IMG/VR virus record: IMGVR_UViG_3300044986_000600
Coordinates: 1 to 42,970 of that record
Reading direction: 5' to 3' (one strand)
DNA from: a virus
Length of the DNA stretch: 42,970 bases
In this document: piece by piece, positions 3,001 to 38,654 of the stretch
Layout of the letters: each line of letters begins with the position of its first letter
Position numbering within the stretch: the first letter of the stretch is position 1
Notes under the pieces: model-generated
Seen by the model: the letters and a program-made list of their open reading frames with translations, nothing else
Database searches by the model: none
What the model was told of the DNA's origin: nothing
Made by a program: the position numbers and the translations under genes

Positions 3001-5666
3001 TCGCCTTGCTCGCGGTTCAGCGATTCGTTGACCGTGTCGAAAACCTGCCGGGCTTCCGGTGGGTAGTTTCCACGGGTAAGTGCTGCTTCGGCTTCCACCG
3101 CACCGGAGGCTTGCTTCCGTGTGTCCGCGGCTTGCTGCTGCTCCGGCGTCACCCGGAGATTGCGGAGCGGTGCCGAAGGCGGCGAGGTAGCCGGCGGGGT
3201 AGCCGGCGGTGTCGAAGGCGGTGGTGTAGCCGGCGGAGGCGCGGCAGCGGTGGGCGGGGTAGCTGGCGGTGCCGAAGGCGGAGTGGTGGGCGGGGTAGCT
3301 GGCGGTGCCGAAGGCGGAGTGGTGGGCGGGGTAGCTGGCGGTGCCGAAGGCGGAGTGGTGGGCGGTGGTGTGGTGGGCGGCAGGGGCGGCGGCATGACCG
3401 GCGGAACGCCAGCAGCCCGCGCTTCCATGCGCTGACGGACCCGGTCAGAAATCTTCAGGGAGGCTTCCATCGACTGGCCGACGCCCAGCGGAGAAAAACC
3501 CGGGGTTCCTTGCGGCGCAATTTCCGGCGGGCTGGCGATGCCCAGTTGCTCTGCCCAGAGAGCCGCTACATCCAACAACCTGTCCAAGACAGGTTGAGGT
3601 GTCCCCGACACAGAGTCCGAGGAAAAGACCTTGTGACCGAGCTCGGCGGCGAATTCCTCCGCGATCCGGCGGACGTCTCCCCGCAGAAATGAGTTGGGAT
3701 TCTTGACGCCGTTCGCTGCCAGCCACTTGTCGTATTCGGCGCCTTTCTGGAGTAGCGCCGGTTCACCGTAGGACGCAACGACCGAGTCAATCAGGTCTTT
3801 CTTAAACGCCTCACCGCCGAGCGCAAAAAGGGTGTGCTCCAGTTCGTGGCCCAGTGACGTGGTGTCGGTGTTGATTAGGATGCGGGTTCCCTCGCCCCCG
3901 CGGCCGGGCAGGACGACTCCCTTCGGTGCTGGTCGCCCTGTCGGTAGGCCGGCGGCGGTAGCGAACTCGTCGTTGTTGAGTAGGTAGAGCTCGCCGTCGT
4001 CTCCAAGCACGTTCTCCCGAATCCAGTTGACGAGGTTCACCGCATCCGGAGCAGCCTCCCTGAATGCTGCCGTATTCCGTTCGTGCGCCGCGTCGAGCGA
4101 CGAGTCGATTCCGTAGGACTGAGACGTAGTCTCAGGAGGTTGCCACTTCTTGAACCGCGATTCCCGGAGCTTGTCGGCACCGTAGCGAACTCGGCCCGCG
4201 GCTTTGCCGGCAACCGCACCACCGATACCGCCAAGCACCGGTCCGGTGAGTGCCATTGCCCGCTCTTCCGGAGTGTCAGAACCGACCGCAGCAGCGACCG
4301 GCAGGGCACCCAGCGGGCTGGTTGGCGTAAGGCCGGCAAGAACGCCTTGGCCCACCGTCTTTGCCGTGCCGGTGACTGCTTTCTCCACAAGACCGGGAGT
4401 CCGAATCGCTCCGGCGATGGGCTTGTTGAGCAGCCACCCGCCGAACTTCATTGCCGGCGGAGTGACGATGCCAGCAACCGCAGCAGGAGCGGCACCGACT
4501 CCAGAGAGGGCACCGATACCACCGAGCACCGCGCCGGAAACAGTGCGGCTCGTCTTCTCACCCCGCTCAACCAACCGCTCGCCCTGCTTGGCTACATAAT
4601 CCGCCACGCCGTTACGGAGGGTCGTGATGGCTTTCTCTGCTGCCGCCGCGGTTTTCGCGAACAGGACAGGTCGGCCAGCCGCAGACGCGACTTTGAAGCC
4701 CTCGCCACCCGGAACGAGCACCGTGGGGTCAGTAAACCAACTCAGGTCTTGAATCGCCGCTGGGTCAACTTTGATGCCTTCCGCTTTCAGCTTTTCAGCA
4801 TCCAGACCGAGGGCACGCATGAACTCAGTGTCGCCTTTCGCCGCATCCTCCAAACGCTTGCGAAGCTGCGAGGTGGCCTCGAAACGAGTGTCCCAGTCGT
4901 CATCGGAAAGGGTTTCCAGCGGAGCAACCAGTGCGTTGACTTCCGGGGACGCAAAAAGTTTGGTCCCCAGAGCTCCCGCAGGGTTGAGTCGGTTCATCAC
5001 CGAGCCGGCCTTGACGCCGAGGTCCGCCAGCCCTTGGACGTTCGATTCCGCAGAAGCGAGTGTTTCCGCAGCGGCTTTTTTGACTCGTGGGAGATTCTGC
5101 TCGGCCTGCTTGTCCACTGTCGCCTGACGGCCCCAGTTGGCCTTCGCCAGTTCGACGACGCCTTTCAGGCCGGGAGCGGGGTTAGCCGCTACCGTGATGG
5201 CAGCGTTCTTCAGGTTCTCCGCGCCTCGCTTAATCGTGTCGATGACGGACTCACCTTCGACAGGTCGCTTCGCCGGAATGGTCAACGCACCCGGAGCCCC
5301 GCCGGACAGGAGGGTGACGTAGGTTTCTGCGAGCGTGGTGGCGGCGGCAGGTAGCTCTTTGCCGAGTTCCACGACACCCTTGGCAAGCTCCTTGCCCGTC
5401 TTCACTGCCTCGGATACGGGGCTGGCTTGGGCGCGGAGTGCCCGCAGCTTGTAGGCTTTGACGAGGTTCTTGCGGGCCTCGGGGGTGATGTCGTCCTCGT
5501 TGCTGAGGTAATAGCCCCGCTCGTCGAAACCTTCTCGGGTGCTCAGCTCCTCCGGACTGGCGTCGAGAACCGGATGCTTGTCCGGCACGACGCCCGTCAA
5601 GTCTATGGTTTTGCCTGCTGGGTAGCCGGGGCTGGGGATGTCGGCGAGGTTTATGAACTGCGGCAT
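1..5666 (-). CDS. giant polyvalent virion protein (partial; HExxH and two GNAT-like motifs)
   Basis: The frame is open from ATG at 5666 to the left edge, at least 1888 residues, so the C-terminus is missing. Visible parts in order: an Ala/Gly-rich N-terminal third; a zinc-peptidase-type motif HELEH at residues about 607-611 in the context SLGHELEHTLF; a proline-rich repeat tract (about residues 769-805); a conserved phage block around residue 1340 (ALTHAKEGYQFGPRGEY, then MAQNSWVNYG); and two GNAT-like acetyl-CoA loop motifs (QKSGIASALYREL near 1620, RRQGLATGLFREL near 1757). It is last in the virion operon after two internal-protein genes, so I infer an injected internal virion protein carrying several enzyme domains. 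The start sits against a perfect hairpin and has no Shine-Dalgarno sequence. Enzyme activities are inferred from short motifs only. Confidence 0.85.
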   Translation of the reverse strand, partial: MPQFINLADIPSPGYPAGKTIDLTGVVPDKHPVLDASPEELSTREGFDERGYYLSNEDDITPEARKNLVKAYKLRALRAQASPVSEAVKTGKELAKGVVELGKELPAAATTLAETYVTLLSGGAPGALTIPAKRPVEGESVIDTIKRGAENLKNAAITVAANPAPGLKGVVELAKANWGRQATVDKQAEQNLPRVKKAAAETLASAESNVQGLADLGVKAGSVMNRLNPAGALGTKLFASPEVNALVAPLETLSDDDWDTRFEATSQLRKRLEDAAKGDTEFMRALGLDAEKLKAEGIKVDPAAIQDLSWFTDPTVLVPGGEGFKVASAAGRPVLFAKTAAAAEKAITTLRNGVADYVAKQGERLVERGEKTSRTVSGAVLGGIGALSGVGAAPAAVAGIVTPPAMKFGGWLLNKPIAGAIRTPGLVEKAVTGTAKTVGQGVLAGLTPTSPLGALPVAAAVGSDTPEERAMALTGPVLGGIGGAVAGKAAGRVRYGADKLRESRFKKWQPPETTSQSYGIDSSLDAAHERNTAAFREAAPDAVNLVNWIRENVLGDDGELYLLNNDEFATAAGLPTGRPAPKGVVLPGRGGEGTRILINTDTTSLGHELEHTLFALGGEAFKKDLIDSVVASYGEPALLQKGAEYDKWLAANGVKNPNSFLRGDVRRIAEEFAAELGHKVFSSDSVSGTPQPVLDRLLDVAALWAEQLGIASPPEIAPQGTPGFSPLGVGQSMEASLKISDRVRQRMEARAAGVPPVMPPPLPPTTPPPTTPPSAPPATPPTTPPSAPPATPPTTPPSAPPATPPTAAAPPPATPPPSTPPATPPATSPPSAPLRNLRVTPEQQQAADTRKQASGAVEAEAALTRGNYPPEARQVFDTVNESLNREQGEVVPVSIEYDSVTPTQGGADNAKIRKLEQDSAYEQEALGTMPPDLRQQVEKTTVPVRWVVRGENVNLLAMSTDKVMANAHRIAQKAGNKNADLVPYQTKGGKLTDQGWRDFVADFITYSRNQANGYAGDGSPVTVPSDYSGFLPERNPTYSPVALDKTKADFLNAAMALPPPKTARGGAAPVVPNIEAAKLATANQRPVIQPAATSEAGKNVYTRPGGIQIAVAETNPLRNQFAKRGIDLTGRELFQVTEELDLQRIRNPKPRPESRLRAPSTDLVRAGFMPDPDPAQFGAKRKGNEPLRRVEEEYTRNAGLTDRKPFSGYEPVNEELAKRFADAYEAATDNPSAPEVKRAYDALATETKAQWDALASAGYKIEPWTGTGEPYKNSADMVKDMEENKHLWFFATDNGFGTLAEANPDNALLQDSGIVVNGKKLLVNDLFRGVHDALTHAKEGYQFGPRGEYNAFLAHSRMFSDEAIPALASETMAQNSWVNYGRHLRRPDGSVPVRGDKDFIPAPQRPFADQKTTVLDATLIQEALAPVERGGQYMPSPETWEEARQAKGRSRAKAMAAGALLSALIASPAVDKALGDPESLRQVTVVDKSARARSGRSQEYYVRVASETGSEPVEIRVDRNLWNNVEAGESVDLLTERGGLFGGESRSVNPEAKFMPLTDAGRELEARGLVFDDSESGSGTYFLRVRKPSVVDRRNGMAVAGISASVTGPGTAKVGLISVDKELQKSGIASALYRELGARLQRDGITKLEGDVINPKPVIAAREKIFGTPEKLEFKGRDLGLGEIVPTASITSRIDPEAKFMPRTLTAEEASEAGYDVSDLKDFPIKRLEVPGSFLDYEEGPTTLNILNTFTESDLRRQGLATGLFRELQSISEQVGKRIDRGAATEDGDKFRAAVYMPTAAEYERQRAERKKQQAAPMVAKKAPVAQRSPTGWIKPTGDYLSSEIGGSMMNSGDWHQNALDSLPADERKQFNLKAKADRLDAVKNGFV
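3252..3359 (-). repeat. three perfect 36-bp tandem repeats (Pro-rich linker)
   Basis: Copies occupy 3252-3287, 3288-3323 and 3324-3359, flanked on both sides by degenerate copies (about 3180-3251 and 3360-3390). Read on the minus strand each unit encodes 12 residues of the type TPPSAPPATPPT. They form an extended Pro/Thr/Ala linker inside the giant protein, between the HExxH region and the middle region. Confidence 0.9.
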
Positions 5667-29963: not shown

Positions 29964-31790
29964 TCAAAAGTCTCCGGAATCGAACCGATTGGTGATGTCA
30001 ATATAGGCTTCCTCGCCGTCCTCTTCAACCGACTTCTGGTTTTGCTGACTGCTGTTTGGCTTGCCGGCGGGCGGCAGCTTCGCGTCCAAGACGCACCGAA
30101 CTACGTGGATGGCGAGCGTCAGAGCGTCAGCGTCGTCGGGGGAGTGGCCGCGGTTCCGGAGCTTGAACTCTTTCTTCTCCTCCACCTTGTTCCGGCGGCG
30201 AGGGTCGTAGCGGCGCCCGGAGAGCTGCATCACTACTTCCGAACGGTCGAACTCCGGCAGGAAAAAGCAGCAGTCCCGCTCGAACCAGTAGCGGACCGCG
30301 AAGTGGAGTTCTGAGAGGACTCGGTCGAACTCTTCGTCCGACTTGGGACCGTCCTCTTCGATCTGTTTCCCCGTTGGGGATTCAGAGTAGTTCACCCCCA
30401 GCAACGGACCCCAAGTGTTCTTCAGGACGTCGAAAACACCCCGGGTGTGCCCCGTTTTGTCAACAGCCAGCATCTCCGGCTTGATCCCAAGAGCGGCAGC
30501 AAGGGCTTTGACCTCGTTGGCCATCTGGACTGTGTCACCTTTCGGCAGAGTGAAGATTCCGTTGATCTGGAGGCAGTTCCGCGGCCGTGAAAACTTGACC
30601 AGCTTGCCGGCCACCTTGATACCCACCGCCATGCCGTAGAGACCGTGACAGAGTTTAGCATGATCGCCGCCGTCGAGCGCCAAGTCGGCACCTCCGACTG
30701 ACGTAGGTCGGCTGGAGAAAACCAACTCCGCTACCGCAGTGTCGAGGACAGACTGGGGAATCACCCCCAAGTCAACACCCTGCGGAGGGTAGCATCCTCG
30801 GCCGAAGGTCCAGTAGCCCGGCGAGTTCCTTCCGCCAGATTTCGATTCGAGGGCCTTGAGGGCAGAAAAGCTCTGGAGCCCCGGATAAATGACTCGCTCT
30901 TCGAGGACGTTCTCGGACTTCTCGGCGTCGAGCCGGATGACGTTCCAGCCCTTCTTGCTGAGCCACTGTTCGTCCGTCTCCGCGTTAAAGCCTTTCCACC
31001 CTCCTTCCGGCTCCGCCATTCGTCCGGGCTCAAGGCTGGGGTCCTTGGGGTTGAAAGCAGCCACCACCTTGAAGCCCTTGTCGTTCTCGTCCGCGAGGTT
31101 CGACATTTGATTCTCAAGGTCCGGGTAGAGTCCCGTTGGCACATTCTCCAGCTCGTCAATGAGCAGGAACAGCCGGGACATGTTCCCGTAGATGGGGTGG
31201 GGCGTCGGTCGGGGATGTCGCTTCGCGCCTTGCAAACGGCCGGCTGACTTCCGGCCGATGGGTAGAACAGTGCCTTGGATCGAGCTCTTTCGGTTCCGGG
31301 TGCTCAGCCCGATGAACAACTGGCCCACCGTGCCGGGAATCGGCAGGGCTGCTTCCGAGTGGAGCTTGACGAGGTGTGTAAACAGGTTGTCCTGAAGATG
31401 GTCTTCCGAGGGTCCGATACACTTGACGTTCGTATACTCCGGGTCTGCGAGCCACTCCAGCAGGAAAAGCACCGCGGGAGTGTAGCTCTTCCCCATCGAC
31501 GACGCACCCATGAGCAGGGTGAAGTTGTTCTTCTGGACGCCTTCCCAAATCATCTTCACCGACCGCGGGTCCGGAGTGAAAAGTGTGGCTGGCCATTGTA
31601 GCTTCGCCGCCAGTTCTAACCTGCGGTTTTTCAGGCAACTGGAGAACACCGATGACAGGATCGAGTCAGCCGTGGACGCGGAGTCGCAGCCCTGTTTGAC
31701 TCCCGTAAGCGAGAGAACCAAACGGGCTGCGTCTACCTTCTGCCCCGCATGGATGTGCGGTGCTGCGTCGGCTACTATTTTATCGAGCAT
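29964..31790 (-). CDS. terminase large subunit
   Basis: The 608-residue product has both motor and nuclease signatures. Walker A is GASSMGKSYT (residues 95-104, K101) and Walker B is LFLLIDELENVP (D212, E213). The RNase H-like nuclease supplies D369 (GGADLALDGGD), D444 (LAVDKTG) and the closing HSPDDADAL (D552, D553, D555). It cuts concatemeric DNA and drives packaging into the procapsid through the portal. An extra helical N-terminus of about 85 residues precedes the ATPase, and the last 40 residues are a polar tail. It starts 6 nt after the CCA of a tRNA-like minihelix. The TerS candidate is about 3.3 kb upstream, separated by sugar genes and RNAs. Confidence 0.9.
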   Translation of the reverse strand: MLDKIVADAAPHIHAGQKVDAARLVLSLTGVKQGCDSASTADSILSSVFSSCLKNRRLELAAKLQWPATLFTPDPRSVKMIWEGVQKNNFTLLMGASSMGKSYTPAVLFLLEWLADPEYTNVKCIGPSEDHLQDNLFTHLVKLHSEAALPIPGTVGQLFIGLSTRNRKSSIQGTVLPIGRKSAGRLQGAKRHPRPTPHPIYGNMSRLFLLIDELENVPTGLYPDLENQMSNLADENDKGFKVVAAFNPKDPSLEPGRMAEPEGGWKGFNAETDEQWLSKKGWNVIRLDAEKSENVLEERVIYPGLQSFSALKALESKSGGRNSPGYWTFGRGCYPPQGVDLGVIPQSVLDTAVAELVFSSRPTSVGGADLALDGGDHAKLCHGLYGMAVGIKVAGKLVKFSRPRNCLQINGIFTLPKGDTVQMANEVKALAAALGIKPEMLAVDKTGHTRGVFDVLKNTWGPLLGVNYSESPTGKQIEEDGPKSDEEFDRVLSELHFAVRYWFERDCCFFLPEFDRSEVVMQLSGRRYDPRRRNKVEEKKEFKLRNRGHSPDDADALTLAIHVVRCVLDAKLPPAGKPNSSQQNQKSVEEDGEEAYIDITNRFDSGDF

Positions 31791-31796
31791 CGAAAT

Positions 31797-31838
31797 TGGT
31801 ATCCACGGTCGGACTCGAACCGACTAAGCATCGTGGAC
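31797..31838 (-). ncRNA. tRNA-like acceptor/T-arm minihelix with CCA end
   Basis: The minus strand reads a 7-bp acceptor-type stem (GTCCACG / CGTGGAT, one G-U), a 7-nt linker ATGCTTA, a 5-bp T-stem with canonical T-loop (GTCGG-TTCGAGT-CCGAC), discriminator A and an encoded CCA (31799-31797). The D-arm and anticodon arm are absent: only 7 nt separate the 5' acceptor strand from the T-arm. Such a minihelix is the known minimal substrate type for RNase P and CCA-end enzymes. It could be a deleted tRNA, an RNA-processing signal just before TerL, or a decoy. I found no other 5' acceptor strand nearby. Confidence 0.6.
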
Positions 31839-31841
31839 ACT

Positions 31842-31900
31842 GAAAAACAAGCCGGTCTTTCGGGTAGTAACTGTCCGGAAACACCCCGTCGAACCGGCTC
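31842..31900 (-). terminator. terminator-like or structured element between tRNA-like RNAs
   Basis: Arms 31894-31900 and 31849-31855 pair as GAGCCGG / CCGGCTT (one G-U) and are followed by GTTTTTC on the minus RNA. A 38-nt interior could form further short stems (CGGG / CCCG). The closing helix is 7 bp, like an acceptor stem, but no tRNA arms are recognisable. It may reduce transcription into TerL or separate the RNA units. Confidence 0.4.
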
Positions 31901-31927
31901 CTCGCCCACACGGGAAAGGTTAAAACT

Positions 31928-32001
31928 GAAGCGCGGGCTGGGTTCGATACCAGCATTCTCTGGAGCTAAAGCACCAGCGTCTTTCTTATCACCACCGCGC
32001 A
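31928..32001 (-). ncRNA. aberrant tRNA-like cloverleaf
   Basis: On the minus strand GCGCGG / CCGCGC (32000-31995 with 31936-31931) closes a 6-bp acceptor-like stem. Inside are a weak D region, an arm CTGG...CCAG with mismatched inner pairs and a TTTA apex, a 5-nt variable region and a T-arm-like hairpin GCTGG/CCAGC. Its 8-nt loop TATCGAAC equals a T-loop with one extra A. No CCA is encoded (TTCA follows). The anticodon cannot be fixed. It may be a decayed tRNA or a tRNA mimic; it lies 11 nt after the tRNA-His. Confidence 0.35.
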
Positions 32002-32011
32002 TCTGAAAAAT

Positions 32012-32088
32012 TGGGGTGTCGTGCCGGACTTGAACCGGCGTTCTCGGATTCACGATCCGGGGTCCTGACCAACTGGACGAACAACACC
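32012..32088 (-). tRNA. tRNA-His (anticodon GTG)
   Basis: A complete cloverleaf is present: G-1 at 32088 paired with C73, acceptor GTGTTGT / ACGACAC, D-arm GTCC-AGTTGGTCA-GGAC, anticodon loop TCGTGAA with GTG at positions 34-36, T-arm GCCGG-TTCAAGT-CCGGC and an encoded CCA. The G-1:C73 pair is the identity element for histidine. Oddities: position 33 is C instead of the near-universal U, and base pair 27-43 is a C-A mismatch. Confidence 0.85.
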
Positions 32089-32257
32089 ATTAGGAGAGGG
32101 TGGATTTACTGACTGCCCTTACTCCCGGCCGTCGCGCCGGGAAGCCCCTCGGGTAAATTTTCACTGTTTCGATGTCAAAGACCGGTTCAGCTTTGCTGCT
32201 GACGAGGACCAACATATCGTCGCCGCAGGGGGAGTCAACACCTGAGTGAAGATTTTT
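32089..32257. other. intergenic region with GC-rich hairpin
   Basis: There is no gene between the GDP-fucose synthase stop and the tRNA-His. A perfect 7-bp hairpin lies at 32123-32129 / 32136-32142 (TCCCGGC / GCCGGGA, loop CGTCGC) without a U-tract on either strand. It could be a processing or pausing structure in the leader of the tRNA array. Confidence 0.5.
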
Positions 32258-37206: not shown

Positions 37207-37494
37207 ATGAATACGAACCTGTTCGACATCCCGGTCTCTCCCCTCTCCGTCGCCCGCTGTGGTAAGTGCGGCTGCGCGGCCGGCAAACATTCGACGGCTT
37301 GCGAGCACTACGACCACCGGCTCGTGGCGGTGGGTGAAATCCTCCGAATCGACGATCCGAAAGCCAAGCACTCCTACGAGGTGCAAGTCAGCCGCACCGA
37401 CTACGCCAAGGTCGCTGCCAACAACCGGACCCAAGCAGCCAAGCTGGTCAAGGCCCGCGGCTTTGAAGTCTTGTCGGTCAACTTTGTTGGTTGA
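37207..37494 (+). CDS. hypothetical small early protein with Cys cluster
   Basis: The 95-residue product starts MNTNLFDIPVSPLSVARCGK and has a cysteine/histidine group (CGKCGCAAGKHSTACEHYDH) that could bind zinc. It ends with a beta-alpha-beta-like region (SYEVQVSRTDYAKVAANNRT; AAKLVKARGFEVLSVNFVG). The start context is CCCACATGAAT, with no Shine-Dalgarno sequence, as for most genes here. No family is recognised. It lies between the first early gene and the frameshifted gene. Confidence 0.65.
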   Translation: MNTNLFDIPVSPLSVARCGKCGCAAGKHSTACEHYDHRLVAVGEILRIDDPKAKHSYEVQVSRTDYAKVAANNRTQAAKLVKARGFEVLSVNFVG

Positions 37495-37529
37495 CACCGC
37501 TCCGAAAAACCCATACACATACGCCAGAC

Positions 37530-38055
37530 ATGAACGCAAAATACGAATTCTCCGAAGTCCAGAGCCGCATCAACCACCTGTTGCTCCGCACTCCGCGGGA
37601 CCAGCAGACCAAGGCATGGGAGGCGCTCTACTACGCCCAGCCGAACACCTCCGAGGCTCAGGTGGCCGGCTACCGCCGCAAGTTCGACGCCTACCACCAA
37701 GAGGGCATCGGTGAGTATCTCACCAGCATCGAAGGGCTGGTCAACGAGATGGCTCGGCTTGCCGAAATCGTCCTCGCTGAGAAGTCCGCGCCGAAAGTAA
37801 AGCGGCAGGTAGTGTCCGACTCCGGCCACTACAACTACCCCACTGAGCCCGGGAGATTACCTGCTCGTTCGCTACGGCAACGGCACCCAACTAGTGTTCG
37901 TCAAGGGGTCCCTTCAGGGGCGGAAAACTCTGAAAATCCGCCGGCTCTTTTCTCGCGGCACTCGCTGGGTTGGCTGGCGCGACTCCACCATCAGCCGGGA
38001 AGACAAGCGCATCCTCGGTCGTTCCTCCAGAGTTTCCCAAGACCCCTTGCCCTGA
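37530..38055 (+). CDS. hypothetical early protein read across a +1 frameshift
   Basis: From ATG 37530 the first frame encodes MNAKYEFSEVQSRINHLLLR through KVKRQVVSDSGHYNYPTEPG (to about 37853). After that its translation becomes Arg/Pro/His-rich and non-native. In the +1 frame good coding resumes at once: DYLLVRYGNGTQLVFVKGSL, then RGTRWVGWRDST and TISREDKRILGRSSRVSQD, with stop TGA at 38053-38055. The second frame has no start codon before the join, so it is not a separate gene. Skipping one G in GAG-CCC-GGG-AGA restores a continuous 174-residue protein. A sequence error, a recent indel or a programmed +1 shift at the CCC codon are the options. Unshifted ribosomes would continue in frame into the next gene. 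Confidence 0.6.
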
Positions 38056-38066
38056 ATATCCACGCC

Positions 38067-38654
38067 ATGAAATACACCACGACACTCGCCCAAATTCGGA
38101 AACACGACCCCTGCGCCCCGGGCTGGCGTAAACTCGTCACCCATCTGGGCGCCGGCTATCCGGAAGACCAGCCCATCGAATTGTCCACCATCCTCAAGTC
38201 GAACGGCTGGCGGGATGCCGTGTGGGCTCTGCGCTCAGTCCCCGGAATTGACGAGGATGCCCGGCTGTTTGCCTGCGACTGCGCGGAGAGGGTCCTGCCC
38301 GAGTTCGAGTCAATGTATCCGGACGACAAGCGCCCACGCAAAGCTATTGAGACCGCCCGGCTGTTCGCCGAAGGCAAGGCTTCGTCAGAGGACCTGAAGA
38401 TTGCCCGGGCAGCCGCCGCCTCCGCCTCCGCCTCCGCCTCCGCCGACGCCGCCTTCGCCGCCTCCGCCTCCGCCTACGCCGCCGCCGACGACGCCTTCGC
38501 CGCCTCCGCCTCCGCCTCCGCCTCCGCCGACGCCGCCTTCGCCGCCTCCGCCTCCGCCTCCGCCTACGCCTCCGCCGACGCCGCCTTCGCCGCCTACGCC
38601 TCCGCCGACGCCGCCAACGTCGAGAGTCTGTTCACCCAACGCTTTTGCAACTGA
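38067..38654 (+). CDS. Imm5-like 'putative immunity' protein with Ala/Ser tail
   Basis: The 195-residue product begins MKYTTTLAQIRKHDPCAPGW and carries the family core: LVTHLGAGYPEDQPIELSTI, then WALRSVPGIDEDARLFACDC, AERVLPEFESMYPDDKRP and an AIETARLFAEGKAS segment. This core is common in bacterial and phage proteins annotated as putative immunity proteins. It is followed, as in relatives, by a low-complexity Ala tail; here it is a Ser/Ala/Asp/Phe repeat of about 65 residues encoded by GCCTCC-type hexamers. It is in the same frame as the first half of the preceding gene, with no stop between. Whether it neutralises a toxin or defence effector is not known. Confidence 0.7.
   Translation: MKYTTTLAQIRKHDPCAPGWRKLVTHLGAGYPEDQPIELSTILKSNGWRDAVWALRSVPGIDEDARLFACDCAERVLPEFESMYPDDKRPRKAIETARLFAEGKASSEDLKIARAAAASASASASADAAFAASASAYAAADDAFAASASASASADAAFAASASASAYASADAAFAAYASADAANVESLFTQRFCN
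38409..38620 (+). repeat. GCCTCC/GCCGAC hexanucleotide repeat tract
   Basis: The stretch is built from GCCTCC units interspersed with GCCGACGCCGCCTTC and GCCTACGCC variants, giving imperfect higher-order copies (for example GACGCCGCCTTCGCCGCCTC recurs). It encodes the ASASADAAFA-type tail of the immunity-like protein. Slippage could change tail length in steps of two residues without shifting the frame. Confidence 0.9.

Follow-up and report, generated by a model that had tools for sequence, protein, structure and literature searches.

The window, the whole stretch of DNA analyzed here, is a linear 42,970-bp IMG/VR virus record from an uncultured phage. On its minus strand, the gene for the terminase large subunit (terL) is preceded by an array with the order promoter, boxA, tRNA-His, element B, element C, minihelix, and terL. 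The features of this region are as follows.

32211 to 32238, minus strand: sigma-70-type promoter TTGACT-N16-TATGTT, identified by motif.
32175 to 32182, minus strand: boxA-like GTCTTTGA preceding the array, identified by motif.
32012 to 32087, minus strand: tRNA-His (GTG) with G-1 and encoded CCA (50.8 bits, Rfam tRNA).
31927 to 32000, minus strand: element B, a degenerate 74-nt tRNA-like RNA (z only -1.6).
31848 to 31901, minus strand: element C, a hairpin closed by (G)AGCCGGT/ACCGGCT(T) and followed by a T-rich stretch, without CCA (z = -2.4).
31840 to 31847, minus strand: leader TTTTTCAG just 5' of the minihelix, read directly.
31797 to 31838, minus strand: tRNA top-half minihelix (element D), assigned by sequence and fold.
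31838-31832, 31831-31825, and 31824-31808, minus strand: acceptor 5' strand, linker, and T-arm of the minihelix, respectively.
31807-31801, 31800, and 31799-31797, minus strand: acceptor 3' strand, A73, and CCA of the minihelix, respectively.
31791 to 31796, minus strand: 6-nt spacer ATTTCG between the minihelix CCA and the terL start codon (ATTTTA, of equal length, in the related locus L050).
29964 to 31790, minus strand: terL, 608 aa, with a start backed by alignment with relatives.

The minihelix is read from 31838 to 31797, the same strand as terL, and its 42-nt RNA is 5'-GTCCACG ATGCTTA GTCGG TTCGAGT CCGAC CGTGGAT A CCA-3'. It is made up of a 7-bp acceptor stem (six Watson-Crick pairs and one G1-U72 wobble), a 7-nt linker, a 5-bp T-stem, a TTCGAGT loop, A73, and an encoded CCA. 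The predicted fold reached -15.3 kcal/mol and accounted for 85% of the ensemble (z = -2.3), with 4 of 200 shuffles being equally stable. In a longer transcript, A73 and C74 could find additional partners in T-1 and G-2, making a 9-bp outer stem possible. An earlier note on this DNA had described an acceptor/T-arm minihelix with an encoded CCA directly before terL and without D or anticodon arms. This observation was confirmed: the coordinates were right, the fold was as claimed, and the terL ATG lies 6 nt past the CCA. The RNA cannot decode. By sequence and fold, it has what is minimally required of an RNase P or CCA-enzyme substrate, namely, a stacked 12-bp acceptor and T-stem, a T-loop, and a 3' CCA.

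The minihelix motif with CCA occurred once in the window against 0.0025 expected from Markov-shuffled windows. When the 3' half was taken as a tRNA fragment, an equally good 7-bp partner was obtained with p = 0.2% (about 0.002) for linkers of up to 10 nt and p = 0.6% for linkers of up to 30 nt. Allowing any G-U pairs with linkers of up to 30 nt raised the acceptor-partner probability to 6%. Chance is a poor explanation of the complementarity. The earlier wording, that it cannot be chance, is slightly strong in view of these values.

ARAGORN and Rfam at the gathering threshold returned the tRNA-His (32087-32012) alone in the window, and the minihelix stayed unmatched when the region was scanned with Rfam at permissive settings. 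Compared with the Rfam tRNA family (RF00005), the minihelix falls below the gathering threshold; the acceptor stem, the T-arm with a TTCRA loop, and CCA are all present, the D-arm and anticodon arm are absent, and the linker alone joins acceptor to T-arm. The armless mitochondrial-type tRNA class does not fit, as there is no anticodon arm. No tmRNA was detected in the window by ARAGORN or Rfam, including the permissive scan. Two further classes were tried and rejected. For an intron-containing tRNA, ARAGORN with intron or mitochondrial settings yielded overlapping low-score models only. For a split or permuted tRNA, acceptor-complementary 7-mers were listed across the window, and the few nominal D-arm-like contexts among them were unconvincing; the missing tRNA 5' half, which was to be sought as a separate exon, therefore had no convincing candidate in the window.

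The tRNA 3'-end shape of the minihelix would also be expected of an attachment site copied from the 3' end of a host tRNA, as in integrating phages, and the best blastn matches of this stretch were phage tRNA-Leu ends at 83-88%. However, an exact search for the 21-nt GGTTCRAGTCCGACCGTGGAY in 84,980 species genomes gave no match, nor was it present in any IMG/VR contig besides that of the window; integrase families were unmatched among the proteins tested, and an att core is not expected to have a paired 5' acceptor strand. We consider an attachment site very improbable.

No Shine-Dalgarno sequence was seen at the terL ATG (31790). Among the window genes checked by eye, a Shine-Dalgarno-like sequence was present at 3 of 31 start codons, pointing to a host not reliant on such signals. 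Elsewhere in the window, 37491-38654 on the plus strand encodes a 387-aa protein with an Imm5-like immunity domain (Pfam PF21805, 7.8e-12; PHROG 18326). A stem that ends 6 nt from a start codon lacking a Shine-Dalgarno sequence, with the 9-bp outer extension possible, could simply be a terL leader hairpin acting in translation or mRNA stability, its likeness to tRNA being incidental to present function. A plain hairpin, however, needs neither a TTCGAGT loop nor the 5-bp plus 7-bp geometry nor CCA, and the near upstream neighbors include a tRNA-His and a tRNA-like RNA. A mere leader hairpin is improbable.

The promoter and boxA pair was found in 7 clade arrays (the window and six others) and was absent from 1.3 Mb of shuffled sequence. 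Given the array order and this recurrent pair, the minihelix closes an array that is read toward terL. The leader octamer TTTTTCAG is also present at 32010-32003, ahead of element B. Element B has a 6-bp acceptor (GCGCGG/CCGCGC) and the T-arm GCTGG-TATCGAAC-CCAGC, lacks a 7-nt anticodon loop, and ends in TTCA, not CCA. Element C (31901-31848) and positions 2790-2858 of the clade locus L016 each form a long hairpin with a T-run after tRNA-His, possibly an array terminator; a simple terminator scan of the window did not flag element C.

Relatives of this TerL in IMG/VR shared about 40-45% identity. Among cultured phages, TerL was unmatched by tblastn, and no relatives were found in GTDB genomes. 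In one relative, L014, the TerL match at 3001-4834 contains in-frame stops in the frame tried, with near-identical relatives free of them, suggesting a frameshift or assembly error. Many members of the TerL clade carry tRNA arrays 5' of terL, and these often hold CCA-ended RNAs with a good acceptor stem and no usable anticodon loop. In the RNA at L104 1826-1899, the anticodon stem is 6 bp long and closed by a tetraloop, yet the RNA still scores 42 bits to Rfam tRNA; the CCA-ended array RNA at L016 2630-2704 combines a 5-nt loop with the T-loop TGAAACA, and L050 contains several odd-bodied CCA-ended RNAs (e.g., 1585-1664). The last array RNA of L050 has no usable anticodon loop, and its CCA lies exactly 6 nt 5' of the terL ATG, like that of the window. 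In L053, L057, L059, L084, L088, and L108, the array closes with a tRNA or tRNA-like RNA whose CCA is followed 4-8 nt later by the next ATG; in many other clade arrays, the end does not adjoin a start codon.

These arrays also hold other RNAs. In L104, a tmRNA (1038-1423, 78.7 bits) is located in the array 5' of terL, beside the anticodon-less tRNA-like RNA. A conserved 68-75-nt RNA, GTCGAGACGGGG...CCCGAAAGGACGCATGGCCCCGCACCAGCTCGAC, is found about 2.4-3.0 kb upstream of terL in L040, L045, L048, L051, L059, L061, and L112. It shows a covarying closing stem and a hairpin, with 95% of cells paired and 4 pairs changed on both sides; the six members scanned against Rfam (all but L112) were unmatched. 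An array RNA ending CCGGTARRAACCCGGCG..AGGGYCMCGATAG..TCCACCA and followed by ATTT is present in L048, L061, L066, L087, and L093, with similar RNAs in L034 and L040; it is CCA-ended and not a tRNA. The T-loop TGAAANN takes the place of TTCRANN in L044 tRNA-Met (1642-1717), L016 (2630-2704), L094, L050 (1585-1664), and L022 (about 1300-1385). GG is apparently missing from the D-loops in three of these loci, L044, L016, and L022, which suggests that the elbow changed in a linked way. GOLLD and ROOL had no Rfam match in the window or the clade arrays scanned.

Scans of about 145 fetched clade loci gave no further convincing minihelix. A candidate in L101 was rejected as A+T-rich and apparently coding, and one in L112 as lying inside a tRNA-Arg. 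The exact minihelix pattern had no match across IMG/VR. A structure-only scan (acceptor, T-arm, and CCA) returned 84 hits versus 75 in shuffles, little better overall, and single candidates were therefore judged by spacer, position, and T-loop. A CCAATTT-anchored scan found an acceptor partner in 20 of 50 cases against 6.7 expected.

The 23-nt pattern TGCTNAGTCGGTTCRANTCCGAC, covering the minihelix linker and T-arm, was present in 1 of 2.9 million viral contigs, L108, where 21 of 23 bases were identical; L108 had been obtained independently as a TerL relative. There the stretch belongs to a longer tRNA-like RNA, as its variable loop and T-arm; this RNA has the acceptor GGAGAG/CTCTCC and a D-arm hairpin and lies in an array upstream of terL. 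Its acceptor is unlike that of the minihelix in sequence, yet 6 of the 7 positions still pair; common descent with turnover of the stem would fit this, as would convergence. Conservation of the stem in relatives, a point raised earlier, could be judged against L108 only, where pairing is kept and the sequence is not. The whole fold of the L108 RNA was no better than shuffles (z = -0.2), and this RNA may itself be degenerate; the homology spans 23 nt, and T-arms of such sequence (GTCGGTTCRANTCCGAC) may be common. On account of the L108 match, the minihelix is read as a tRNA or tRNA-like RNA minus its D and anticodon arms. We hold with high confidence that it is a tRNA-derived top half, and an internal deletion from a tRNA or tRNA-like gene is, judging from the sequence, its most likely origin.

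The reading we tentatively favor is that this top half, left by deletion as the last element of a promoter-boxA array and cotranscribed with terL, may serve as a processing signal. Internal deletion would have reduced a tRNA-derived RNA to acceptor stem, T-arm, and CCA, with the linker as a leftover of the variable loop. The array would be transcribed from the conserved promoter with its boxA antitermination signal, and the transcript would most likely continue into terL. RNase P clamps the top half of tRNA (PMC4919913), and the minihelix is a known substrate of tRNA enzymes (PMC4033280). Since the top half is the part contacted by RNase P and by the enzymes that mature tRNA 3' ends, the element would be cleaved at the 5' end and perhaps also behind the CCA. 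Cutting here would free the upstream tRNAs from the terL message, leaving a terL mRNA with a 12-bp hairpin cap or an almost leaderless one (AUUUCG-AUG). A near-leaderless mRNA is plausible because Shine-Dalgarno signals are rarely used in the window and none was seen at terL. We infer transcription, processing, and any benefit of the minihelix from the DNA. A processing role in cis is suggested by its place as the last array element, 6 nt from the ATG, and by the repetition of this arrangement in L050. Counting against it, element B and hairpin C have no CCA, and pairing of T-1 and G-2 with A73 and C74 could hinder normal RNase P contacts. The minihelix is thus possibly an RNase P/3'-processing signal, a role to which we attach moderate to low confidence.

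The same deletion may instead have left a nonfunctional remnant, with an array tRNA or tRNA-like gene having recently lost its middle, the rest undecayed, and nothing depending on it. Array elements turn over among close relatives: the element related to the minihelix in L108 is absent from L106, which is 97% identical nearby. No second minihelix emerged from the clade loci scanned, and elements B and C look degenerate. On the other hand, all 12 pairs, the T-loop, the discriminator, and CCA are intact, and the position is exactly that of the functional-looking last array element in L050. Selection on the stem is unproven, as the data hold no true orthologue, and a recent neutral deletion would look alike. 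Since no orthologue permits a selection test, we regard a neutral remnant as quite possible and nearly as likely as the processing role.

An action in trans was also considered, with the minihelix as a stand-alone small RNA serving as a decoy for enzymes that grip acceptor, T-arm, and CCA, such as host tRNA-tail nucleases (e.g., Cas12a3), RNase P, or the CCA enzyme. The parts by which Cas12a3 grips a tRNA (T-arm, acceptor stem, and CCA tail) are all retained here, and this nuclease still cuts truncated tRNAs (PMC12851939); an antidefense role is discussed for clustered tRNA genes (PMC12803027). However, neither the window nor the clade shows a link to such defense, and one copy adjoining terL is an odd dosage. 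A decoy therefore seems improbable. The earlier note had set processing tag, decoy, and remnant side by side, an interpretation that is partly supported: deletion origin is the best supported through L108, cis processing is suggested by place and by L050, and nothing specific speaks for a trans decoy.

Reduced and nondecoding tRNA relatives are known from other systems. Armless mitochondrial tRNAs have lost whole arms inside long tRNA-punctuated transcripts, keep the anticodon, and decode; the minihelix, likewise a reduced tRNA, has no anticodon. The tRNA cluster of phage T4 includes the stable, nondecoding RNAs C and D, which resemble the minihelix in being nondecoding members of a phage tRNA cluster but are larger. 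GOLLD and ROOL, structured noncoding RNAs without an assigned role beside phage tRNA islands (PMC12286853), are far larger and have no top-half form. The tRNA minihelix of the literature, the acceptor-TPsiC top half used in operational-code studies, shares the 7-bp plus 5-bp stem, 7-nt T-loop, discriminator, and CCA; it is mainly a laboratory substrate and origin model (PMC4033280), whereas the window element is genome-encoded, has a 7-nt linker, and lies in a phage tRNA array. In mitochondrial tRNA punctuation (Ojala, Montoya and Attardi 1981, as cited by PMC10941002), a tRNA end abuts the start codon, and cutting there would likewise yield a near-leaderless mRNA; the window, in contrast, is from a bacterial virus, where processing is a prediction. 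The tRNA array units of Mycobacterium avium plasmids differ from chromosomal tRNAs mainly in the D, anticodon, and variable arms and are still cloverleaves with anticodons, and the available text of that paper does not mention a minihelix (PMC12803027).

Extended to the clade, the tRNA top half may be a modular tag for processing in these phages, whose array RNAs would keep acceptor stem and CCA while the body is freely replaced, and the window would bear the bare minimal tag, punctuating the transcript right before terL to give a near-leaderless mRNA. We consider this broader proposal rather unlikely. If the element is a mere remnant, it offers a clear snapshot of phage tRNA arrays losing the half that decodes and retaining the top half for longer. 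Should it be expressed and processed, the element would represent a tRNA minihelix encoded naturally by a bacterial virus and an example of a phage transcript punctuated in tRNA style. The finding opens up little-described phage tRNA arrays that hold CCA-ended, nondecoding RNAs.
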